Shown: one piece after another, positions 5,826 through 63,595 of the stretch
Layout of the letters: each line of letters begins with the position of its first letter
Position numbering within the stretch: position 1 is the stretch's first letter
Source: Amycolatopsis regifaucium
Lineage (GTDB): Bacteria > Actinomycetota > Actinomycetes > Mycobacteriales > Pseudonocardiaceae
Direction: 5' to 3'
Length of the DNA stretch: 64,000 nucleotides
Assembly: GCF_001613935.1 (NCBI RefSeq)
Contig: NZ_LQCI01000050.1
Span: 124,001-188,000, forward strand
Notes under the pieces: generated by a model
The model's database searches: none
What the model was told of the DNA's origin: nothing
Seen by the model: only the letters and a program-made list of their open reading frames with translations
Position numbers and translations under genes: made by a program

Positions 5826-5880
5826 GTCCGTGAAGGCCTCCTTCCCTACTCTCAAGGTAGGGAAGGAGGCCTTCACGGAC
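5826..5880. repeat. Family A palindrome, copy A1
   Basis: Perfect 24-bp inverted repeat, left arm starting GTCCGTGAAGGCCTCCTTCC, 7-nt loop TCTCAAG. It lies between the convergent arabinosyltransferase and helR genes. Identical arms recur at 6194-6248 and 40317-40371, and shortened arms at 61481-61529. Either strand could form the hairpin in RNA. No U-tract follows. Confidence 0.97.
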
Positions 5881-21298: not shown

Positions 21299-21498
21299 GT
21301 GAGTGGCGATTCGGGTTGGAGCGAACCCTCTCTTAGGGACCTACTCGTCACCTGCGGTCTTGCTCGCGTGTAAGTACATGATGGCCCCCTTCCTTGCGCT
21401 AGGCGCAAGGAAGGGGGCCATCATGTACTTACGCCTGACCTGCAAGGAGTCCTTCACGGACCGGCCACTACCGCACCCACCCGCCGTAGGTACCTAGA
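21299..21498. repeat. Composite repeat element, copy 1 (D-E-B-A')
   Basis: Modules in order: D GTGAGTGGCGATTCGGGTT (21299-21317); E, starting CTACTCGTCACCTGCGGTCT (21341-21370); B1, a perfect 30-bp inverted repeat with 3-nt loop (21370-21432; arm starts GTAAGTACATGATGGCCCCC); A', starting CAAGGAGTCCTTCACGGACC (21443-21495). The same modules in the same order, on the opposite strand, occur at 54375-54616. It lies between the convergent ABC-F and paaE genes, a 320-bp stretch with no gene. Confidence 0.9.
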
Positions 21499-53330: not shown

Positions 53331-54335
53331 ATGCGCGAGACGCCGACCCAGGCCTCCTATACCCGGCTCGAACTCGGTGACACCAGCAAGATCCCGGTCA
53401 GTGTGACGGTTTCCCCGCATATCTCGCTGGTCTCGATGCTCGTCGAGGTCGTCGGCGGGTACGACCGTGGTCTGCCCGCCCCCTGGCGCCGCCAGGTGGG
53501 CTCGGCGATTCCGGAGCAGGGATACCGTGCGGCGAGCGCGCTCGCCCGTCGGGGCACCTCCGTGCAGCCGGATTTCATCGTGCCGATCAGTCCCACCGAG
53601 GACGCTTCCGCCGCCGCACAGGCGGAAATGCTGCGCGAGCTGCCGGAAACCGATGTTTTGAAAGGACTCGAAGAGGTCTTCGGCGACCAAGTGCCCGCGC
53701 AGTGGCGGCAGGCGGCCGATCATCCGAGACGCTGGGTCGCCTCGCTCGCGGACGCCTTCACCGCGACCAGGGTGGCGACCGAAAATCTCTGGATCAAGGC
53801 CCGTCCCCTGCTCGACCGCGAGATCGAACGGATCGGCGTCGCCTCCGTCCGCGGCGGGACGGACGCGGTACTGGGCCTGCTGCGGCCCCATTTCCGGTTC
53901 AGCAACGGCTCCTTGCTGCTGCCCGACGCCGAACCGGCGCGCTACACCACCCGTGGCCGCGAACTGATCCTCGTCCCGATGCTCGCGGGCTGCCGGTCGG
54001 TGGTGTCCAACTTCGACGAGGAGGACGCCATCTGGATCGGCTATCCCCTCCCCGGACTGGACGGTCTGCTCGAGAACGGCAGGCCCGAAGCACCCCCCGG
54101 AGCGGAGGGGCTCGACCTCGTCGTCGGTGCCCACCGCGCGAAACTGTTGCGGCACTTGGGTAGACCCGCCCGCATGGGGGAGATCGCGAACCTGCTGTCC
54201 TGTGCCGCGAGCACCGCGACCTACCACTGCGAGCAGCTCGTCTCGGCGGGCCTGATCCAGCGTCACCGCGAGGGCCAGGTCGTCCTCGTGGTCCGGACAG
54301 CCCGCGGTGACGCTTTGGTGGACCTGCTGTCCTGA
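53331..54335 (+). CDS. ArsR-like winged-helix transcriptional regulator, 334 aa
   Basis: C-terminal winged helix: GEIANLLSCAASTATYHCEQ then LVSAGLIQRHREGQVVLVVR (about 277-325). The N-terminal 260 residues form an unusual long regulatory region (PHISLVSMLVEVVGGYDRGL, TTRGRELILVPMLAGCRSVV) typical of large actinobacterial ArsR-type proteins of unknown ligand. No metal cysteine motif is seen. ATG 53331 has AGGAGGG upstream. Separate from its neighbours; target unknown. Confidence 0.85.
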   Translation: MRETPTQASYTRLELGDTSKIPVSVTVSPHISLVSMLVEVVGGYDRGLPAPWRRQVGSAIPEQGYRAASALARRGTSVQPDFIVPISPTEDASAAAQAEMLRELPETDVLKGLEEVFGDQVPAQWRQAADHPRRWVASLADAFTATRVATENLWIKARPLLDREIERIGVASVRGGTDAVLGLLRPHFRFSNGSLLLPDAEPARYTTRGRELILVPMLAGCRSVVSNFDEEDAIWIGYPLPGLDGLLENGRPEAPPGAEGLDLVVGAHRAKLLRHLGRPARMGEIANLLSCAASTATYHCEQLVSAGLIQRHREGQVVLVVRTARGDALVDLLS

Positions 54336-54338
54336 CTC

Positions 54339-54616
54339 GTGAGTGGCGATTCGGGTTCTAGCCAAGGGGGTTTCAGGTACCTACGGCGGGTGAGCCCGGT
54401 AGTGACCGGTCCGTGAAGGACTCCTTGGTCACCCACTGGTGTGGGGCTGGTGCGGGCTGCCGGTCGGCACGAGCTTGATCAACTGCAGGTCCACCTTTCC
54501 CCAGTACATGAAGGCCCCCTTCACTGCGCCTAGCGCAAGGAAGGGGGCCATCATGTACTTCACGCGAGCAAGACCGCAGGTGACGAGTAGGTGCTCTAAC
54601 CCGAATCGCCACTCAC
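54339..54616. repeat. Composite repeat element, copy 2 (inverted relative to copy 1)
   Basis: D (54339-54357), A' (54375-54427), a B palindrome (54503-54559), E reversed (54561-54590), D reversed (54598-54616). Read from the minus strand, the order D-E-B-A' is the same as at 21299-21498. The B arms have diverged: the left arm reads AGTACATGAAGGCCCCCTTC, the right arm the ATGG variant, so the stem has mismatches. The 287-bp gap between convergent genes holds no gene. Confidence 0.88.
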
Positions 54617-54622
54617 CACCCG

Positions 54623-56194
54623 CTAAACCCGTTGCAGGCCCGGCCTTCCCGCCTCGACGACGTAGCTGCGGTCCGCGGCGAGGGTCACCTTCGAGAAGTC
54701 GTACTCGGCGGTGTCCGAAACCGTCATGAAATCCGCCCGCATCTGCGCCTGGGTGGCCGTCACCCGGACATAGCCGCGCTTTCCCCGGCAGTACTTGATG
54801 TGCGGGTTGTGCGAGAGCCACGTCGACGACGGATCGCTCGCGGTGTCGCTGTTGCTCGTCACCGACGTCGTCACCAGTTCCGAACCGAACACCGGGTCGC
54901 TGTGGTTGAAGTAGTCGCGGCGCAGATCCGCGGCCCAGTGCCGGTGGACGTCGCCGGTCAGCACGATCGGGTTCGGCACCTTGCGGTCCACGATGCCCTT
55001 CGCGATCCGGTCGCGGGAAGCCTCGTAGCCCTGCCAAGAGTCGGGGCTCTCACAGGTCGCCTTGTTGCCGTCGCCGTCACGGGTGGCGAAGAAGACCTGC
55101 TGGCCGAGGAAGTCCCACTTCGCCGGGGCCGTCTCCAGCGCCTTCAGCAGCCACGCCTCCTGTGCGGTGCCCAGGATGCTGCGCGACGTCGACCGCATGT
55201 CGGTGCACGCGGGTCCCGCGTCGCCGGAGGGATCGGGTACCTGCGCGTTGCGGTACTGCCGCGTGTCGAGCAGGTGGAACCGGGCGAGGTTGCCCCAGGC
55301 GAACTGCCGGTACAGGCGGATGGTCGAACCACTCGGCTTGGCGGTGGACCGGATCGGCATGTTCTCGTAGAACGCCTGGAATCCGTTGGCCTTCCGCTCG
55401 GCGGTCGCGGGGGTGGTGGTGCCGTTCCAGTTGTTCATCACCTCGTGGTCGTCGAAGACCACGATCCACGGCGCCATCGCGTGCGCGTTCTGCAGGTCGG
55501 CGTCGGTCTTGTGCTGCGCGTGCCGGGCGCGGTACTGAGCCAGCGTCGTCACGTCCTCGGTGAAGGCGAGCCTGCGCGGATTCAGTTCGGCGGCCGCGCG
55601 CCCGGATTTCCGCTCGTACATGTAGTCACCGAGGAACAGCACCAGCTCCGGGTTGTCGGCGAGCATTCCCTTGTACGAGTGGTACCAGCCCTCCTCCCAG
55701 TGCTGGCAGGAGGAGAAGCAGTACTTCAGCTGGTCGACGGCCGCACCGGCGGCGGGTGCGGTCCGGGTCCGGCCGACCGGCGAGAGGTATCCGCTGGTCT
55801 TGAAGCGGTAGAAGTACTCGCGTCCCGGCGCGAGGCCGACCGGCTCGATGTGCACACTGTGCCCGGAGGCGCGGGCCGCGGTCGCGCTGCCGCGCTGGAC
55901 GACCGAGGAGAACGCCTGGTCGTTCGCGATCTCCCAGTCCACTGTGTACGAAGCGTCCGGCATTCCGCCGAAACCGTCCGGGTTCAGCGGGGCGGGCGCG
56001 AGCCGCGTCCACAGCACGACGCTGTCCGGCAACGGGTCACCCGAGGCGACACCGAGCTGGAACGGATCGTGGATGGCGGGCGCCGCCGCCATCGTTCTCG
56101 CGTTCGCCCACGAAGGCAACGTCGACGTCAAAGCCGCCGCCGAAACCGCCGCGGCTCCACCGAGCAGTACCGCCCGCCGGTTCACCTGACCCAT
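54623..56194 (-). CDS. phoD: Secreted alkaline phosphatase D
   Basis: 523 aa. Tat signal (NRRAVLLGGAAAVSAAALTS). PhoD features: FQLGVASGDPLPDSVVLWTR at the mature start, FSSCQHWEEGWYHSYKGM, FLGDYMYERK, VVFDDHEVMNNWNG and LTGDVHRHWAADLRR, giving the metal ligands. It is a phosphodiesterase/phosphomonoesterase that frees phosphate. A possible PHO box pair lies upstream (see findings). The gene runs with the SH3-like gene upstream but with a 44-nt gap. Confidence 0.93.
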   Translation of the reverse strand: MGQVNRRAVLLGGAAAVSAAALTSTLPSWANARTMAAAPAIHDPFQLGVASGDPLPDSVVLWTRLAPAPLNPDGFGGMPDASYTVDWEIANDQAFSSVVQRGSATAARASGHSVHIEPVGLAPGREYFYRFKTSGYLSPVGRTRTAPAAGAAVDQLKYCFSSCQHWEEGWYHSYKGMLADNPELVLFLGDYMYERKSGRAAAELNPRRLAFTEDVTTLAQYRARHAQHKTDADLQNAHAMAPWIVVFDDHEVMNNWNGTTTPATAERKANGFQAFYENMPIRSTAKPSGSTIRLYRQFAWGNLARFHLLDTRQYRNAQVPDPSGDAGPACTDMRSTSRSILGTAQEAWLLKALETAPAKWDFLGQQVFFATRDGDGNKATCESPDSWQGYEASRDRIAKGIVDRKVPNPIVLTGDVHRHWAADLRRDYFNHSDPVFGSELVTTSVTSNSDTASDPSSTWLSHNPHIKYCRGKRGYVRVTATQAQMRADFMTVSDTAEYDFSKVTLAADRSYVVEAGRPGLQRV

Positions 56195-56238
56195 GAGAAT
56201 TCAACCTTTCGAAGTGGGGAAAGAACGGGGAGTGAATT

Positions 56239-56895
56239 TCACGCGGCGTAATCGGTGATGCCGCCACTGCAGGCCTCGAGTACCGGATTCGCGGCGGCGT
56301 TGGCGACGCAGACCTTGTAATAGACCCACGAACCCTTCGCGACCGGAACGACCTTGTCGACGTGCGTGCCGTTACCGCCGGAGGCCCAGACATAGAACGG
56401 GCCGGCGCCACCCTTCGTCCAGTAGGCGACCACAGCGGACTTGCCGTCGGCGTCCTGGTCGTAAACCAGGAAATGAGCATCCGATGAACGGAACTGTCCT
56501 TCGCCGGCGCAGGTACCGGTGGAACATTCGGCACTGCCGGAACCGACGCCGCAGTCGGGTGCGATCCGCTGATCGGAGCCGGTGTAGACATATCCGTCCG
56601 AAATGTAGCCACCGAGCGCGGGAACGTAGTCCCACAACGTCGTCGTGCCGAGCGGACCGGTGACCGAACTCCCGATCGTCTGGCAGTCGATGGTCACCGT
56701 GGCCCCGTTGGCCACCGTGCGCACCGCGGTCGACGCCGTGTTCGGCGCGCGGCGCACGTTCAGCGGATCGCCCGCCGTCTTCACGGTCCCGGTCGCCGCG
56801 GCCAGCGCGGGGGTGGCACCCGCGAGACCGAAGGCGCCCGCCGTCACCAGCACGAGGAAGAAACCGGCGAGCCGCCGGATACTTGAACGCTTCAT
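56239..56895 (-). CDS. Secreted SH3-like protein (SH3-1)
   Basis: 218 aa. Sec signal (about 1-33: RRLAGFFLVLVTAGAFGLAG, cleaved near ALA-A). The first mature domain resembles a bacterial SH3b: GTVKTAGDPLNVRRAPNTAS, then LGGYISDGYVYTGSDQRIAP; four cysteines in the next stretch probably form disulfides. It is paralogous to the C-terminal domain of the protein at 60120 (DPLNVR / DPMNVR; YISDGYVYTGSD / YISDTYLQTGSD). The role is unknown; wall binding is a guess. Upstream are 11-bp repeats. Confidence 0.75.
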   Translation of the reverse strand: MKRSSIRRLAGFFLVLVTAGAFGLAGATPALAAATGTVKTAGDPLNVRRAPNTASTAVRTVANGATVTIDCQTIGSSVTGPLGTTTLWDYVPALGGYISDGYVYTGSDQRIAPDCGVGSGSAECSTGTCAGEGQFRSSDAHFLVYDQDADGKSAVVAYWTKGGAGPFYVWASGGNGTHVDKVVPVAKGSWVYYKVCVANAAANPVLEACSGGITDYAA

Positions 56896-56916
56896 GGCGG
56901 CAGCGTCGACCGGAGT

Positions 56917-56933
56917 CGTACACATCCCGTACA
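56917..56933 (-). promoter_or_regulatory. Direct 11-bp repeats upstream of SH3-1 (possible SARP site)
   Basis: On the minus strand TGTACG GGATG TGTACG gives the same hexamer twice with an 11-bp period (56933-56928 and 56922-56917). SARP proteins bind such repeats. The second SH3-like gene has TGTATC GATCG TGTACA at 60049-60065. Confidence 0.55.
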
Positions 56934-57008
56934 AACACCGAAGCCTGTCTGCACATGCATGCGAATGGATCTAGCCAACCATGGCGTTACGGCAATACGA
57001 TCGGAGGA

Positions 57009-57041
57009 ATGGGGCTCCTGCCGTATTGGCGGTTTAGGTGA
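57009..57041 (+). CDS. Short upstream ORF of the SARP regulator (10 codons)
   Basis: MGLLPYWRFR, whose TGA (57039-57041) overlaps the GTG (57038) of the regulator as GTGA. GGAGG (57003-57007) is only 1 nt from the ATG, which is suboptimal. A broken CAATACG...CGTATTG repeat surrounds it. Possible translational coupling or attenuation; may be chance. Confidence 0.35.
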   Translation: MGLLPYWRFR

Positions 57042-59974
57042 CTATTCTCGGGTTTCGCGTTCTCGGTCCGCTCGAAGTGGCGGTGGACGGGCAGGTGGTG
57101 CCGCTCGGCGGCCCCAAACCGCGTCTGCTGCTCGCCGCGCTGCTTCTCCAGCCCAACGTCGTCGTCTCCACCGAACTGCTGATCGAGGTCCTGTGGCCCT
57201 CGTCGGCTCCCCGTTCGGCGGCGGCGAACATCCGCACCTACGTCCATTCACTCCGCAAACGCCTCGCCGATCACGATCCCGGACTCGGGGAACGGATCGG
57301 CAGCCGGGCGTCCGGATACATCTTGAAGGCTTCCCCTGGGGAGATCGACCACATCAGGTTCGGCGAACTGGCCGCGCTGGCACAGGACGCACTCGGCCGA
57401 GGGGAGGCCGAAACCGCTCTCGACCTGCTGGATCAAGCCGAAGCGCTGTGGCGCGGGGAAGTCCTCGAAGGGCTACCCCACGACCACGGCTGGGGCGCGA
57501 CGGTGGCCCGGCTGACGGAATCGCGGCTCGCGGTCTCCGAACAACGGCTGCGGGCGAGGATCGAACTCGGCCGTACCGCCGAAGCCGTCGCGGAACTGCG
57601 CGGCCTGGTCACCGAGCATCCGCTGCGCGAGGAACTCTGGCAGCAGCTGATCGTCGCGTTGCGGGCCGACGGCCGCATGGCCGACGCGATCGAGGCCTAC
57701 GAAACGGCCGAGAAAGTGCTGGCCGAGGAACTCGGCACCGAGCCGGGACCGCGGTTGCGGGAAGTGCGGGCCTCGCTGGTCGCGGCGCCGTCCGCGCCCG
57801 TCCCGCTCACCCGGCCTACGGCGCCGGTCTGCCAGCTGCCGCTGGACCTGCCGGACTTCACCGGCCGCGACACGGTGGTCGGCGATCTCGTCGACCTGTT
57901 CCGTCGCCGCCGTGGCCAGGGGAAACCGGCGATCGTGGTGCTTTCGGGGGCGCCGGGGGTCGGCAAATCCTCGGTCGCGATCCGGGTCGCGCACGCGGTG
58001 CGGGAGGACTTCCCGGACGGCCAGCTGCATGTCGATCTCGCCGGGACGTCGTCCTCGCCCCGGCCGCCGATGACCGTGCTCGCGGAGTTGCTCCGCGCGC
58101 TGGGCGTCCCCGACGCGGGCCTGCCGCGGGAACTGCCCGAACGCGCGGCACTGCTGCGCTCCCGGCTGGCGAGTACGCGGATGTGCGTCGTCCTCGACGA
58201 CGCCGGCAACGCGGCGCAGGTCCGGCCACTCCTGCCCGGGGCGGGCACCTGCGCGGTGCTGATCACCAGCCGGGTGCGCATGCCGGATCTGGCCGGGGCC
58301 ACCCCGGTCGACGTCGATCTCCTGCCCGAGGCCGAGGCCGCCCAGCTGCTCGAAGGCATCGTGGGCCGGGACAGGGTGGCCGCCGAACCTGAGTGCGCCG
58401 CCGCGATCCTGCGCCAGTGCGGGTATCTGCCACTGGCGATCCGGGTCGCCGGGGCGAAGCTGACCCACCGGCCCGGCTGGACGCTGCGTGTCCTGGCCGA
58501 CAGGCTGCGGGACGAGAGACGAAGACTCGACGAACTCCGCGTCGGTGATCTTGCCGTCCGCGCCAGTGTCACGCTCAGCTACGACCTCCTGCCGATGTCG
58601 GCGGCGACCGCGTTCCGCGGCCTCGGCGGACTCGGCTCGGTCCAGTTCCCCGCTTGGGCGGTGGCGGCCCTGCTCGGCCGGACCCACGCCGACGACGTCC
58701 TCGACGTGCTGGTGGACGCCCACCTGGTCGAACTCACCGGCTCGGACGGCAGCGGCGAGCCGCGCTATCGCCTGCACGACCTGTTGCGGTGTTACGCCGT
58801 CGAACTGCGGGCGCAGGACGTCCCGGAGAAGGCGCGCGACGCCACCAAACGAGTACTGGAGGGATATCTCGCCCTCGCGGTCGAAGCGGCGGATCGGATG
58901 CCGATCCACTTCTTCGGGCTATACCGGGACGACACCGCCGTCCAGCCGGCTCTCCCACCGGGGACCGCGAGGCTGGTCGAAGATCCGGCCGCGTGGTTCG
59001 CCGCCGAGCGGCACACCTGCGTCGCCGCCGTCTCGCTGGCCGCCGATCTCGGTTTCGACGCGCTCGCCTGGCGGCTCGCCGCCGCGCTCGCGCCGTACTT
59101 CGACCAGCGCGGGCACCAGGACGACTGGCTGCACACGCACGCCGTGGCACTGGCGGCGGCCCGCCGGTCCGGCGAGGTGCGGGGCGAAGCGATCATTCAG
59201 CGCAACCTCGGCCAAATCCAGCTGTACCAAGACAGTTACGCCGAAGCACTGGTCGCGTTCGAGCAGTCGCAGCTGCTGTTCGACAAGATCGGCGACGCGC
59301 GGGGCACGGCGATCGCATTGGCCGGGCTCGGCACCGTGCTGCGGATCAAGGGCGAGGTCGAGGTCGCGCTGGAGCACTGCCACGCGGCACTCGACCAGTT
59401 CTCGGCGGCCGGTGATCCGCATGGCGAGGCCGTCGCGCGGATCGCGATCGGCGCGGTGTGGCTGGCGCGACGCCGGTTCGCCGACGCGGAACGCTGGTTC
59501 ACCGAAGCACTCGAACAGGCCGCGGCCATCGGCGACCGGCATCGGGAGGCACACGCGCTCAAACGGCTCGCGATGTTGCAGCAACACCAAGGAAACCTCG
59601 CCAGGGCACGCGAACGGGTCGACCGGGCCATCGCGATCTTCAACGAACTCGGCGACGACCACTGCATCGGCTACGCGAACCAGAACCTCGGCGAGCTTTA
59701 TCTGCACAGCGGGGACCTGGCCCACGCGCAACTGCTGCTGGTCAATTCGCTGAGCGTGCACCGGCGCAATGGGGACCGCCGGTCCGAGGCCGAGGTGTCC
59801 CAGCTGCTGGGGGAACTGCACGAGGCATTGAGCCAGCCGGAGCGGTCGCGGACGTACTCGGAACGCGCCCTCGCGTTGTGGCGGGAGCTCTCGGCACGGC
59901 CACAGGAGTCCGCGCTCGCTTCACGGCTGCAGGAATCGGCGGAAGCCTCCTACGGCGACTCCGCGAGCGCCTGA
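57038..59974 (+). CDS. SARP/AfsR-type regulator: BTAD-winged helix, NB-ARC ATPase, TPR repeats
   Basis: 978 aa. N-terminal OmpR-like DNA-binding domain (FRVLGPLEVAVDGQVVPLGG; SAAANIRTYVHSLRKRLADH, residues 1-95) and BTAD (about 95-245, LRARIELGRTAEAVAELRGL). An NB-ARC ATPase has Walker A VVLSGAPGVGKSSVAIRV (about 304-312) and Walker B-like MCVVLDDAG. C-terminal TPR-like helices (from about 690) end the protein. GTG 57038. Such regulators activate nearby genes through direct repeats; the flanking SH3-like genes carry such repeats. Confidence 0.92.
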   Translation: MTILGFRVLGPLEVAVDGQVVPLGGPKPRLLLAALLLQPNVVVSTELLIEVLWPSSAPRSAAANIRTYVHSLRKRLADHDPGLGERIGSRASGYILKASPGEIDHIRFGELAALAQDALGRGEAETALDLLDQAEALWRGEVLEGLPHDHGWGATVARLTESRLAVSEQRLRARIELGRTAEAVAELRGLVTEHPLREELWQQLIVALRADGRMADAIEAYETAEKVLAEELGTEPGPRLREVRASLVAAPSAPVPLTRPTAPVCQLPLDLPDFTGRDTVVGDLVDLFRRRRGQGKPAIVVLSGAPGVGKSSVAIRVAHAVREDFPDGQLHVDLAGTSSSPRPPMTVLAELLRALGVPDAGLPRELPERAALLRSRLASTRMCVVLDDAGNAAQVRPLLPGAGTCAVLITSRVRMPDLAGATPVDVDLLPEAEAAQLLEGIVGRDRVAAEPECAAAILRQCGYLPLAIRVAGAKLTHRPGWTLRVLADRLRDERRRLDELRVGDLAVRASVTLSYDLLPMSAATAFRGLGGLGSVQFPAWAVAALLGRTHADDVLDVLVDAHLVELTGSDGSGEPRYRLHDLLRCYAVELRAQDVPEKARDATKRVLEGYLALAVEAADRMPIHFFGLYRDDTAVQPALPPGTARLVEDPAAWFAAERHTCVAAVSLAADLGFDALAWRLAAALAPYFDQRGHQDDWLHTHAVALAAARRSGEVRGEAIIQRNLGQIQLYQDSYAEALVAFEQSQLLFDKIGDARGTAIALAGLGTVLRIKGEVEVALEHCHAALDQFSAAGDPHGEAVARIAIGAVWLARRRFADAERWFTEALEQAAAIGDRHREAHALKRLAMLQQHQGNLARARERVDRAIAIFNELGDDHCIGYANQNLGELYLHSGDLAHAQLLLVNSLSVHRRNGDRRSEAEVSQLLGELHEALSQPERSRTYSERALALWRELSARPQESALASRLQESAEASYGDSASA

Positions 59975-59981
59975 CGTCGAA

Positions 59982-60036
59982 GTACATGAAGGCCCCCTTC
60001 CTTGCGCCTAAGTACAGGAAGGGGGCCTTCATGTAC
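59982..60036. repeat. Family B palindrome, copy B3
   Basis: 21-bp perfect arms (GTACATGAAGGCCCCCTTCC...), loop of 13 nt, starting 8 nt after the SARP stop. Between two genes on the same strand. Confidence 0.95.
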
Positions 60037-60048
60037 ATCCCGGGCGTT

Positions 60049-60065
60049 TGTATCGATCGTGTACA
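60049..60065 (+). promoter_or_regulatory. 11-bp direct repeats upstream of SH3-2
   Basis: TGTATC (60049-60054) and TGTACA (60060-60065) are 11 bp apart, as at 56917-56933. TTTGTA-N6-GTGTAC is shared by both sites. A SARP-like binding site is inferred. Confidence 0.5.
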
Positions 60066-60119
60066 GGTCCCGGCGAAGCTTCCGTCGTAGCAACCGAGAG
60101 TGCTCGAAGGGAGACCGGA

Positions 60120-61343
60120 ATGGTCCGGACCGTGAAGGCCCGCCGTGTGATGGCGGCCGTGCTGGCCATGGGGGCGGTCACCGCGCTGGCCGCCAACCCC
60201 GCGAACGCGGCGTCCGAAGGAAGCTGGCGAGCCGACTTGTCCACTGTGGACAGCGACGATGTCAACGTCCGCAGCGACGGTGGCGTGCTCAGCCTGGAAA
60301 ACGCCGCCTGGCACAGAAAACCCGACTCCATCGGCAGCCAGGGCTACCTGCTGCTGGGCGAGCAGAAGCTCGGGAAGCCGGTGAACCGCGTCACCGCGCG
60401 GGTGACCGCCGACGCGCCGAAGGGCACGGCCGTCGAGGTCGACGTCCGCGGAAAACTGAACTCGAACGACTGGACCGAGTGGACCCCCGCCGAGGGTGGC
60501 GCCCAGCTGTCCACTTCGGTCTCCACGGTCCAGGTCCGCATCGGACTGCGCACCGTGAACGACGGACTGACCGCGAAGGTCAGCGACGTCACGCTCCAGG
60601 GCGAACTCGGCCCGCAGACGAACGCGATCGGCGCGGCCGCCGCCCCGCTGACCTACAAGGTGTTCGCCACCCGTGAGGGTCTTCCCGGCGGCACCACCGC
60701 CAACGGCCACGTGATCAAGTCCCGCGACCACTTCGTCGCGCTGCCCTCCGGACGCGGCCTGGCGCCCAAGAACACCGGAAACTACACCGTCCGCGTCTGC
60801 CGCACCGACAACAGCCGCTGCGAGTACGCGCCGGTGTGGGACGTCGGCCCGTGGAACACCAAGGACGACTACTGGAACCCGTCGGCAACCCGCCAGATGT
60901 GGAAGGACCTGCCGCAGGGCAAGCCCGAAGCACAGGCCGCGTACCAGGACGGCTACAACGGCGGCAAGGACGAGTTCGGCCGCAAGCCCGCCAACCCGGC
61001 AGGAATCGACCTCGCGGACGGCACCTTCTGGGACGGCCTGAAGATGACCGACAACGGCTGGGTCAACGTCTCCTACCTGTGGACCGGCTCCGGCCCGACC
61101 GGTGTCGTCAGCACCGCGGGCGACCCGATGAACGTGCGGGCTTCCGCGAGCACCACGGCGGCCGTCAAGGGCCTCGCGGCGAACTACGCGAAGGTCAACA
61201 TCGAATGCTACGTCGAGGGTGAGACCGTCACCGGCAAGTTCGGCACCAGCAACATCTGGGACCGGATCGGCCCGGGACACTACATCTCCGACACCTACCT
61301 GCAGACCGGATCGGACCTGCCCGTCGCGCCCAAGTGCGCGTGA
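60120..61343 (+). CDS. Secreted protein with double-psi-barrel-like and SH3-like domains (SH3-2)
   Basis: 407 aa. Sec signal (about 1-30, cleaved near ANA-A). An N-terminal beta domain (about 32-165), a middle section with FVALPSGRGLAPKNTGNYTV, VWDVGPWNTKDDYWNPSAT and AGIDLADGTFWDGLKM that resembles RlpA/expansin-type barrels, and a C-terminal SH3-like domain paralogous to the protein at 56239. ATG 60120 has GAAGGGAG upstream. Probably acts on or binds the cell wall; function unproven. Confidence 0.7.
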   Translation: MVRTVKARRVMAAVLAMGAVTALAANPANAASEGSWRADLSTVDSDDVNVRSDGGVLSLENAAWHRKPDSIGSQGYLLLGEQKLGKPVNRVTARVTADAPKGTAVEVDVRGKLNSNDWTEWTPAEGGAQLSTSVSTVQVRIGLRTVNDGLTAKVSDVTLQGELGPQTNAIGAAAAPLTYKVFATREGLPGGTTANGHVIKSRDHFVALPSGRGLAPKNTGNYTVRVCRTDNSRCEYAPVWDVGPWNTKDDYWNPSATRQMWKDLPQGKPEAQAAYQDGYNGGKDEFGRKPANPAGIDLADGTFWDGLKMTDNGWVNVSYLWTGSGPTGVVSTAGDPMNVRASASTTAAVKGLAANYAKVNIECYVEGETVTGKFGTSNIWDRIGPGHYISDTYLQTGSDLPVAPKCA

Positions 61344-61353
61344 CCCCCTGAAC

Positions 61354-61392
61354 GCGAAGGCCCGGCGCACCCCCATTGCGCCGGGCCTTCGC
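61354..61392 (+). terminator. Hairpin terminator of SH3-2
   Basis: 16-bp arms GCGAAGGCCCGGCGCA / TGCGCCGGGCCTTCGC around a 7-nt loop, 10 nt after the stop. No long T tract, as is usual in GC-rich actinobacteria. Confidence 0.85.
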
Positions 61393-61480
61393 CCTTTCCG
61401 GAAACTCATCGAGGGCCGCCTCAAGCTCGCGCGTTCCGCGACGTCCAGCGCCCGGTTGCCAGGAGTCGAGGTCCATGTTC

Positions 61481-61529
61481 CGTGAAGGCCTCCTTCCCTA
61501 CTCTCAAGGTAGGGAAGGAGGCCTTCACG
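61481..61529. repeat. Family A palindrome, copy A4 (shortened arms)
   Basis: 21-bp arms CGTGAAGGCCTCCTTCCCTAC and complement, loop TCTCAAG. It lacks the outer GTC/GAC of A1-A3. It lies in the 345-bp gap before the GH88 gene; the rest (61530-61688) may hold its promoter but I see no clear hexamers. Confidence 0.93.
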
Positions 61530-61688
61530 ACACAGCCGTCGCGGGTCGACACACGCGAGCGACACCAAAAAGCCTTACCGTCACCATAAGACCGTCCCAC
61601 TGAACGGCGCGTTTATTCACAACCATGAATGGCCTTCACAAGCGCTCAGTCGTCATGCGAAACTCCCGTGACGCATTCCCACTGACGA

Positions 61689-62930
61689 ATGGCGGGCATC
61701 GTGAGCGTTTCCCGGCGAACCCTGTTGACCACCGCCGCCGGTGCCGCCGTCACGGCGACGGCGATCACCCCGTCCGCCAGGGCGGCGGAGCGGGAAGCCG
61801 ACGGTTCAAGGACTTTCCGCCGAACGGCCGACTACGCGGTGACCAAACTGCGAGTCGTCGCACCCGGCGTGACGGCCTTTCCGGAGATCACCCGATTCGA
61901 GAAATGGACCTATTCCGCCAATGGCGGCTGGATCGGCGGTTTCTGGCCGGGAACATTGTGGCTCGCCTCGATCTACAGTGGCGATCCGCAATTCCGGACG
62001 CTCGCGATGGCGGCCGCGGAAAAGCTCGCGCCGCGCCAGTATGAAACACGCGATCACGACCTCGGATTCCTGTTCTATCCCTCGTGGGTGACAGGCTGGC
62101 GGCTCACCGGCGACGAGAAGTGGCGCACCGGCGCGCTCAACGCCGCCGCGTCGCTCATCCAGCGCTACAACGAAAAGGGCCGGTTCATCCGGGCATGGGG
62201 CGCGCTCGGCACGCCGGGTAACGCCGGCCGGGTCATCGTCGACACGATGATGAACCTGGATTTGCTCACCTTCGCGAGCAAGCAGACCGGTGACCGGAAG
62301 TACCTCGACATCGCGGTCTCCCACGCGAAGACCACCGAACGGGTCTTCCTGCGCCCGGACGGTTCGACCCCGCACGTGTTCGACTTCGACCCGGACACCG
62401 GCGCCGAGATCGGCCCGAACTCCGTGCAGGGCTACAGTCCGGCGTCGTGCTGGTCGCGCGGCCAGGCTTGGGCGATCTACGGGTTCACCACGATGTACCG
62501 GCGCTCCGGCGACCCGCTGTTCCTGCGGACAGCGCAACGCCTGGCGGACTTCGCGCTCCGCGCCCTGACCCCGGACAACGTGCCGGTGTGGGACTACCTC
62601 GCTCCACAGGCACCGCACGACATCAAGGACTCCTCCGCCGGAGCGGTGATGGCGTGTGGGCTGCTCGACCTGGCGAAGGTCGCGAACCGGCCGCAGTACC
62701 GCGAGGCGGCGATCCGGATCCTCACGGCGTTGTGCGACACCTGCCTGACCACGAAGTCCACCCGCGCCGAGGCGATCATGGCGCGGGGCACCCGCAACCG
62801 CCCGGCCGAGGACGGCGTCGAGGTCTCACTACCCTACGGCGACTACTACCTGCTCGAAGGCATTCTGCGGGTGCTGATGCCCGCGGAGCTCGACAAGGCG
62901 ATCGACCTCTCCACGCGTCCCAGTACATGA
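61689..62930 (+). CDS. Secreted GH88-family unsaturated glucuronyl hydrolase
   Basis: 413 aa. Tat signal VSRRTLLTTAAGAAVTATAI, cleaved near ARA-A. GH88 (alpha/alpha)6 features: NGGWIGGFWPGTLWLASIYS, VIVDTMMNLDLLTFAS (catalytic Asp region), SVQGYSPASCWSRGQAWAIY and KDSSAGAVMACGLLDLAK. It hydrolyses unsaturated uronyl ends from lyase products. ATG 61689 (GTG 61701 is an alternative). The TGA stop (62928-62930) lies inside palindrome B4, so the last residues STRPST may be shaped by the repeat. Confidence 0.85.
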   Translation: MAGIVSVSRRTLLTTAAGAAVTATAITPSARAAEREADGSRTFRRTADYAVTKLRVVAPGVTAFPEITRFEKWTYSANGGWIGGFWPGTLWLASIYSGDPQFRTLAMAAAEKLAPRQYETRDHDLGFLFYPSWVTGWRLTGDEKWRTGALNAAASLIQRYNEKGRFIRAWGALGTPGNAGRVIVDTMMNLDLLTFASKQTGDRKYLDIAVSHAKTTERVFLRPDGSTPHVFDFDPDTGAEIGPNSVQGYSPASCWSRGQAWAIYGFTTMYRRSGDPLFLRTAQRLADFALRALTPDNVPVWDYLAPQAPHDIKDSSAGAVMACGLLDLAKVANRPQYREAAIRILTALCDTCLTTKSTRAEAIMARGTRNRPAEDGVEVSLPYGDYYLLEGILRVLMPAELDKAIDLSTRPST

Positions 62931-62978
62931 TGGCCCCCTTCCTTGCGCCTGGCGCAAGGAAGGGGGCCATCATGTACT
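62922..62978. repeat. Family B palindrome, copy B4, containing a stop codon
   Basis: Perfect 27-bp arms (left begins AGTACATGATGGCCCCCTTC), 3-nt loop, between convergent GH88 and DUF4396-like genes. The left arm provides the GH88 stop codon. Confidence 0.97.
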
Positions 62979-62996
62979 TCACACCAGCGAAAGACG

Positions 62997-63455
62997 TCAG
63001 TGCGCGTGGTGCGCGTGGACCTTCGCATGTCCCAGCCCGCGCCCGATCATCCACTTGTTCACCGGCACCGTCAGCACGAACGCGATGGCCAGCGAGAACG
63101 CCAGCGCGCCCCAGAACAGCAGGCTCCCGAGCCCGGCGTCCATGGCACCCGGCACCACCACCATGACCCCGTTGTCGACGATCTCCATGACCGCGATCGA
63201 GACGGTGTCGGCGGCCAGCGCCACCTTGAGCGCCGCGCCGATCCGCAGGCCCGACTTCAGCACGCCGCGCATCGTCAGCGCGTAACCGAAGACGAAGGCC
63301 AGCGCGACCGACAGGACGATCGTCGCCGCGTTGTGCAGGCCGAGTGCCGTGCCGATCACCATGCCGAGGACCTCGCCGATCGCACAGCCGGTGAGGCAAT
63401 GCAGGGTCGCCGACGCCGCCATCGACCAGCTTGCTCCATGCCGTGTCTCGTTCAT
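62997..63455 (-). CDS. DUF4396-like four-helix membrane protein with His-rich tail
   Basis: 152 aa. About four membrane segments (TGCAIGEVLGMVIGTALG; ATIVLSVALAFVFGYALT; DTVSIAVMEIVDNGVMVV; LLFWGALAFSLAIAFVLT). LHCLTGCAIGE has two cysteines and the tail is GHAKVHAHHAH, suggesting a metal site. ATG 63455 (MNETRHG) is upstream-limited by an operator-like element. Function unknown; the family often sits near copper or redox genes. Confidence 0.7.
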   Translation of the reverse strand: MNETRHGASWSMAASATLHCLTGCAIGEVLGMVIGTALGLHNAATIVLSVALAFVFGYALTMRGVLKSGLRIGAALKVALAADTVSIAVMEIVDNGVMVVVPGAMDAGLGSLLFWGALAFSLAIAFVLTVPVNKWMIGRGLGHAKVHAHHAH

Positions 63456-63464
63456 ACGAACCAA

Positions 63465-63483
63465 TATACCCCCTACCCGTATA
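63465..63483 (-). promoter_or_regulatory. CsoR/CstR-like operator upstream of the DUF4396-like gene
   Basis: TATAC (63465-63469), a C-rich middle, and GTATA (63479-63483) form TATAC-CCCCTACCC-GTATA. CsoR-family repressors (copper, persulfide) bind ATAC-G/C tract-GTAT sites. It lies 9 nt from the start codon, where a repressor would block transcription. Confidence 0.5.
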
Positions 63484-63595
63484 TATGGCGCAGTGACGCG
63501 GCTCTCCTCGATCGCTCACCGTCACCCCCGTAGGCCGAATCGGTAATCGGGCCAGGTCGATGAACTCACTTCCGTAACCCTTTGCGCTCATCCGG

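Follow-up and report, generated by a model that had tools for sequence, protein, structure and literature searches.

REG, a large SARP-type regulator of Amycolatopsis, is very probably the activator of a dispersed set of genes for secreted, wall-facing proteins, acting through paired T-TGTAC(G) half sites next to a poor -10 element, as judged from sequence. The gene was found in a 64,000-nucleotide stretch of Amycolatopsis regifaucium (RefSeq assembly GCF_001613935.1, contig NZ_LQCI01000050.1, positions 124,001 to 188,000), which is called the window throughout and corresponds to C50:124001-188000 of the home genome (G000; 8.27 Mb, 52 contigs). REG is located between SH3-1 and SH3-2, two genes for predicted secreted proteins, each preceded by a pair of half sites. 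A first-pass annotation of the window had reported TGTACG-N5-TGTACG ahead of SH3-1 and TGTATC-N5-TGTACA ahead of SH3-2, both of which we found to be exact and in place, and had proposed a compact local regulon for wall-facing proteins. The main features, in window coordinates, are as follows.

56917..56933, minus strand: SARP-type operator of SH3-1, TGTACGGGATGTGTACG = TGTACGGGATG-TGTACG, two half sites 11 bp apart (exact match, conservation)
56902..56907, minus strand: -10-like hexamer GACGCT (NANNNT) of SH3-1, 9 nt past TGTACG (composite match G000:C50:180902-180934)
60049..60065, plus strand: SARP-type operator of SH3-2, TGTATCGATCGTGTACA = TGTATCGATCG-TGTACA (exact match, conservation)
60075..60080, plus strand: -10-like hexamer GAAGCT (NANNNT) of SH3-2, 9 nt past TGTACA (composite match G000:C50:184048-184080)
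57038..59974, plus strand: REG, large SARP of AfsR type, 978 aa, proposed activator of the regulon (Pfam, PDB match, orthologs)
56239..56895, minus strand: SH3-1, secreted, 218 aa, bacterial SH3-like domain, proposed target (SH3_3, GsmA model, signal-like start)
60120..61343, plus strand: SH3-2, secreted, 407 aa, proposed target (N-terminal part, conserved middle, C-terminal SH3-like domain)

Conserved operators and promoter geometry

The exact pattern TGTA-N7-TGTAC occurs twice in the window, and the two occurrences are the SH3-1 and SH3-2 operators, which share a like context (GTTTGTA...GTGTAC). The SH3-1 operator is the sole exact TGTACG-N5-TGTACG in the window and stands 21 nt from the SH3-1 ATG; the SH3-2 operator lies 54 nt ahead of the SH3-2 ATG. 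Chance tests confined to the window were not significant, neither with two mismatches (3 matches vs 2.6 expected) nor for TGTA-N7-TGTAC with one mismatch (3 matches, a number that 10 of 100 shuffles reached). The significance of the operators comes from ortholog conservation and genome-wide counts rather than from window statistics.

Conservation was assessed in 27 Amycolatopsis loci with REG, which come from related species, so that the counts are not independent. A full SH3-1 lies beside REG in 23 of these loci (exceptions L047, L048, L055 and L057), and SH3-2 was matched from its first residue in 23, with partial matches in L047, L048 and L057 and none in L052; the partial rows, anchored on the match instead of the gene start, were left uncounted. 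Together with the window, the operator is present upstream of SH3-1 in 24/24 sequences and upstream of SH3-2 in 24/24, and the TTGTA/TGTA columns are invariant in all 24 promoters of each set. The mean top-base frequency of the motif and the -10 A/T columns is 1.000 in both sets, compared to 0.498 (SH3-1) and 0.538 (SH3-2) in 25 upstream columns; on these figures the flanks are diverged enough for the contrast between motif and flank to be meaningful, despite the kinship of the loci. Two SH3-1 operators, in L042 and L056, end in TGTAT instead of TGTAC. The absence of the repeats upstream of orthologous genes, which the first-pass annotation would have held against its idea, is largely not what we observed, but the SH3-2-like genes of L047, L048 and L057 have no site.

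The periodicity is that of SARP sites, as had been suggested, and it extends to the -10 region. In SARP promoters the repeats are spaced by 11 or 22 bp and the 3' repeat lies 8 bp from the -10 element (PMC10936776, parts of which are drawn on here and below). The operators have both features, the 11-bp direct repeats and the SARP distance between the 3' repeat and the -10 hexamer, the latter being assigned by pattern only. NANNNT stands 10 nt past TGTAC (9 past TGTACG) in 84 of 108 distinct sites, whereas other offsets have 0–4 occurrences, except for 14 at offset 21; these sites are distinct as 72-mers, many come from close relatives, and chance matches from other genera are included. Among sites that fit the strict pattern TTGTAY-N5-DTGTAC, searched on both strands with the reversed pattern as control, NANNNT occurs at the SARP distance in 90 of 98 (13 genus genomes). 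The afs box extends from -40 to -19, AfsR contacts T-38 and T-27 in it, and a change of either T abolishes AfsR binding (PMC10936776). With our hexamer set as -12 to -7, positions -38 and -27 are occupied by the first T of the respective TGTAC copies.

Between the hexamer and the SH3-1 ATG (window 56896-56901) there is a gap of 6 nt, a length shared by 20 of 23 orthologs; in L035, L043 and L046 it is 7 nt. The corresponding gap of a GH6 gene in the home genome is likewise 6 nt. SH3-1 transcription would then start on or next to the ATG, giving a leaderless mRNA.

REG is a large SARP below the cut-off of the AfsR model

The AfsR-type gene that the first-pass annotation had placed between the SH3 genes carries the expected domains. 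REG has an N-terminal OmpR-type DNA-binding domain (Pfam Trans_reg_C, 4.9e-7) followed by a BTAD domain (1.4e-38), a central NB-ARC/NOD part (NB-ARC, 6.4e-11) and C-terminal TPRs (TPR_12, 3.9e-24), and it matches the AfsR structure 8k60 with an E value of 2.3e-124. This order of SARP, NOD/NB-ARC and TPR is that of AfsR from Streptomyces coelicolor, and the promoters also resemble the AfsR target afsS in their 11-bp direct repeats over the -35 region, in the distance from repeat to -10, and in a suboptimal -10 (CACTGT in afsS, GACGCT and GAAGCT for SH3-1 and SH3-2) (PMC10936776). In contrast, the best NCBIfam model, SARPRegAfsRStmc (NF053617), gives REG 560.6 bits, under the AfsR equivalog cut-off of 1430. 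The half site is TGTACG where afsS has TTCAGC at -38 to -33, the recognition helix reads RTYVHSLRK against RTYASRLRK in AfsR, and REG is predicted to act on genes for exported proteins instead of afsS or antibiotic genes. Judging from the tested domain and promoter features REG is a SARP, yet by the NCBIfam cut-off it is not AfsR, from which it differs in operator, recognition helix and predicted regulon. The helix peptide RTYVHxLR, with arginine codons CGN, occurs once in the home genome, in REG, and was seen in 35 of 38 sequences read (L108, L114 and L115 deviate).

The SARP domain of REG also matches EmbR of Mycobacterium tuberculosis (structure 2fez, 5.4e-35). EmbR has a cell-envelope role, and its targets are arabinosyltransferase genes. 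Unlike REG with its NB-ARC and TPR parts, EmbR has an additional FHA domain (PMC10936776).

A proposed dispersed regulon in the home genome and the genus

In 80 Amycolatopsis genomes there are 532 strict sites vs 9 for the control, with at least one site in 79/80, compared to 59 vs 42 across the family's other genera (143 genomes). When the repeats and the -10 were searched as one composite in 397 genomes of the order, matches appeared in 20 genomes. These comprised 13/13 genus genomes, with 90 sites where the control had 0, and 7 of the 384 remaining genomes, with 8 sites where it had 2. Each of the 13 genus genomes has 3–9 strict sites with a -10, and where the genes behind such sites were read they mostly encode secreted proteins. 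Four of the seven non-genus genomes (G026, G009, G020 and G128) carry a REG relative (56–66%), G033 is among those without a REG match, and the other two are G377 and G406.

The home genome has nine strict sites, all with a -10, and two more with one repeat mismatch, giving 11 promoters. A relaxed scan gave 25 rows vs 15 for the control; 14 rows had three mismatches, and only SH3-2 was kept from these. The targets are listed by contig and position.

C3:105932: M23 peptidase
C9:205006: secreted protein without Pfam match
C16:28986: beta-helix protein (Pfam 19 bits, under the cut-off)
C18:195843: small secreted protein
C23:219725: GH6
C34:728825: small SARP
C50:180902: SH3-1
C50:184048: SH3-2
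C50:233191: Tat-type propeller protein
C51:308754: SH3-1-like secreted protein
C52:385895: sialidase-like (BNR) protein

Ten of the 11 promoters precede genes for exported products, nine according to a crude signal-peptide rule of our own, run once, that accepts 5 of the 37 called genes of the window, and the Tat-type one by eye; the remaining promoter is that of the small SARP. The ten products likely act on or outside the cell wall. A cluster-situated antibiotic SARP would have biosynthetic targets, and the ten promoters ahead of exported proteins do not fit this, although antibiotic clusters were not searched for. Two further candidates fell short: C9:514116 (secreted, weak DUF2599), another of the three-mismatch rows, has one mismatch in its repeats and no -10, and C34:1122767 (two mismatches) was dropped for want of a convincing gene start within 200 nt downstream.

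Similar targets recur outside the home genome. In G124, from another Amycolatopsis clade, strict sites precede genes for an M23 peptidase (without -10), for one protein each of the SH3, sialidase-like and beta-helix kinds, and for a further exported protein; an additional site, L100, has no convincing gene. M23-like genes, named outside the home genome by similarity or sequence reading, carry a strict site near REG in G009, G056, G115 and G154 and at other locations in G020 and G215, with a -10 in G056, G154 and G215 and without one in G009, G115 and G020. In G128, of another genus, a composite site stands ahead of a relative of the C9:205006 protein (L194, by eye). With 11 promoters across the home genome, 3–9 in each of 13 genus genomes and some targets distant from REG, the proposal of a compact local regulon is not supported.

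Two observations concern further SARPs. The small SARP (G000:C34:728889-729656; L141:1890-2657) lies between glycosyltransferase-like and methyltransferase-like genes (by eye). A large SARP (G000:C3:107984; L132:4940-7804) lies downstream of the M23 target, in G141 too, and forms a second neighbourhood of a SARP and a wall hydrolase.

Co-occurrence and co-location of sites and REG

The link of the sites to REG, the other half of the earlier proposal, stands on co-occurrence and co-location. These, like the sites, their spacing, their conservation and their counts, are read directly from the genomes. A REG ortholog (61–100%, E<=1e-200) is present in 79/80 Amycolatopsis genomes; in G191 it was matched from residue 235 onward only, and the matches in G168, G203 and G215 are interrupted by a stop. 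G216 (97% complete) is the sole genus genome without REG and the sole one with 0 sites, and it has no SH3-1 relative (E<=1e-15) and no M23 relative (E<=1e-20). Among the 143 genomes of other genera, 16 have a REG relative (scoring 900 bits or more, or partial at 63–65%) and hold 16 sites vs 4 control, and the other 127 hold 43 vs 38. With six g27 genomes (relatives at 52–53%) moved to the REG group, the counts are 22 vs 9, and 37 vs 33 in the remainder.

Strict sites lie within 0.7 kb of a REG relative in G053, G056, G005, G009 and G115, which represent five genera. G053 has sites on both sides of its REG relative and the same block with PhoD, SH3-1 and SH3-2; the G115 site and one of the two G005 sites are without a -10. 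REG of G154, a distant member of the genus, has a composite site at a distance of 0.74 kb. The site is also kept where the targets have moved: SH3-1 and SH3-2 stand head to head in G020, each with a site, on a different contig from REG; SH3-1 with PhoD lies about 250–270 kb from REG in G150 and G159; and SH3-2 is on a different contig from REG in G026. All of these relocated sites have a -10. G005 further shows three tandem half sites, 11 bp apart (L108, 5328-5354), 38 bp upstream of its partial REG relative and oriented away from it.

Evidence against the regulon and alternative explanations

Several findings weigh against control of these sites by REG. The joint absence of REG and sites rests on one genome. 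L047, L048, L057, L147 (G182) and L149 (G201) carry REG and have no composite site in the locus; the M23 gene of L147 is preceded only by a relaxed site without -10, and G182 has 1 strict site vs 3 control. In G106 a composite site adjoins a weak SH3-2-like stretch, and a search for REG relatives at E<=1e-150 found none. The sites in L098, L100, L106, L109, L116, L105 (the minus-strand site), L108 (one of two) and L210 are without a -10, and four of these precede M23 genes. G005 has a partial REG relative, which covers residues 1-706 at 50% and has a different helix. In AfsR, R92 contacts T-38, and REG has S there (8k60 alignment vs PMC10936776), so the contacts cannot be transferred one to one.

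Another regulator could bind the repeats, for instance the small SARP (G000:C34:728889) or an OmpR-type response regulator, and REG would be a mere neighbour. The site in the small SARP's own promoter, the large SARP downstream of the M23 target and the composite site in G106 would all suit this explanation, which we nevertheless consider improbable. Among 19 other genomes scanned, 92% matches to the small SARP were found only in G085 and G141, and the best match in the remaining 17 was 55%, while 16 of these 17 still carry strict sites; the small SARP was rejected as the genus-wide binder because close matches occur in too few genomes (2/19). The SARP beside the M23 gene was rejected because its helix, QTYILRVRR (read from the protein start), is different. 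In the home genome, RTYVHxLR with CGN codons belongs to REG alone, and sites adjoin REG relatives in five other genera.

REG might also control only the two SH3 genes, other matches being chance or the work of other factors. Both local sites are present in all 24 compared promoters of each gene, and control of the distant sites is itself predicted from sequence. Such a purely local regulon is very unlikely and was rejected on the genome-wide counts in the 80 genus genomes (532 vs 9). The distant sites have the same -10 spacing, G000 and G124, from different clades, both have site-bearing M23, SH3, sialidase-like and beta-helix genes (orthology of the M23 genes is not clear), and the G128 site precedes a relative of a distant home target. 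Least probable of all is a sigma-factor promoter in which the repeats would be -35 and -10 elements and not an activator site. TTGTAC, which we take to resemble TTGACA, does lie upstream of a -10-like hexamer. The usual -35/-10 spacing is 16–18, yet the two TTGTAC copies are 21 and 10 bp from the hexamer, neither of them near it, and we rejected the sigma promoter on this spacing. Two copies 11 bp apart are no sigma feature, and an extended spacer is a named feature of SARP promoters (PMC10936776).

Products and neighbourhood of the SH3 genes

SH3-1 and SH3-2 share an SH3-like domain, as the first-pass annotation had proposed, with 39/81 identical residues (48%, E 2e-19), and both proteins pass the crude signal-peptide rule. 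SH3-1 falls under the Pfam SH3_3 cut-off (E 2.3e-5, 24.9 bits vs 27), and SH3-2 has no Pfam match, SH3_3 included. Despite this, SH3-like appears the best description of both domains. They match the start of the model of GsmA, a sporangiospore maturation cell wall hydrolase (NF038016), at 56.3 bits (3.4e-15) for SH3-1 and 49.8 bits for SH3-2, below the cut-off of 240; unlike GsmA, neither has a hydrolase domain by Pfam. The AlphaFold model of SH3-2 has a mean pLDDT of 48.8, and its N-terminal part may, with low confidence, be beta-sandwich-like. The best PDB match of the model was the C-terminal domain of mouse PNGase (E 3.6e-4), followed by carbohydrate-binding modules among others; these matches concern the N-terminal part and offer only a hint.

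One further gene and a repeat family lie nearby.

54623..56194, minus strand: PhoD-like phosphatase (Pfam PhoD, 1.3e-98), following SH3-1 in the same direction after a gap of 44 nt

The PhoD-like gene and SH3-1 are probably on one transcript, and the two genes are adjoining also in L104, L111, L120 and L121. A tandem-repeat search of window 54000-63500 found none. Apart from the operators, the window contains a short inverted-repeat element with arms like AAGGGGGCCTTCATGTAC, 19 nt apart, giving 15 matches (at most 3 mismatches) vs 0.02 expected, of which 14 are paired. Its copies lie at 21374-21428, 54504-54558, 59982-60036 and 62923-62977, with diverged pairs at 5826, 6194 and 40317. One copy is between REG and SH3-2, and its right arm was not seen in the 100 nt upstream of SH3-2 in relatives.

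Proposed mechanism and significance

We propose that REG, as a side-by-side dimer, would bind two T-TGTAC(G) half sites, 11 bp apart and 9 nt upstream of a poor -10. Bound REG would recruit RNA polymerase to promoters with a poor -10 and an over-long spacer, like AfsR at afsS. The NOD and TPR parts of AfsR inhibit its SARP domain unless ATP is bound (PMC10936776); by analogy, the NB-ARC/TPR part may keep REG inactive until a signal reaches this sensor and, together with ATP, releases the activator. The target list suggests that this signal is the wall, or wall- or plant-derived glycans. The output would be exported wall binders, wall hydrolases and glycan-active enzymes, with envelope remodelling or exoenzyme production as the inferred purpose, and the small SARP under the same motif would add a cascade.

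More tentatively, and with less than even confidence, this STAND-type SARP could be a genus-wide master activator of envelope-facing exoenzymes, whose NB-ARC/TPR part senses wall fragments or loss of wall integrity. The response would consist of exported wall hydrolases, SH3 wall binders, PhoD and glycan-degrading enzymes, some from leaderless mRNAs, with the small SARP as a clade-specific second tier.

The best-known role of SARPs is that of a switch for antibiotic clusters, and control of exoenzymes and wall proteins would be an unusual job for this family of antibiotic regulators. None of the titles and opening parts of abstracts considered described a SARP regulon made up of secreted proteins or wall hydrolases, and most medium and large SARPs are described as not well investigated in a 2024 review (PMC10972967). 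For one large SARP, sequence alone yields a precise operator, a promoter geometry and a dispersed list of predicted targets. This provides a directly testable function for an ortholog group of 79/80 Amycolatopsis genomes, and the operator with its -10 spacing may be a ready route to the regulons of other large SARPs.

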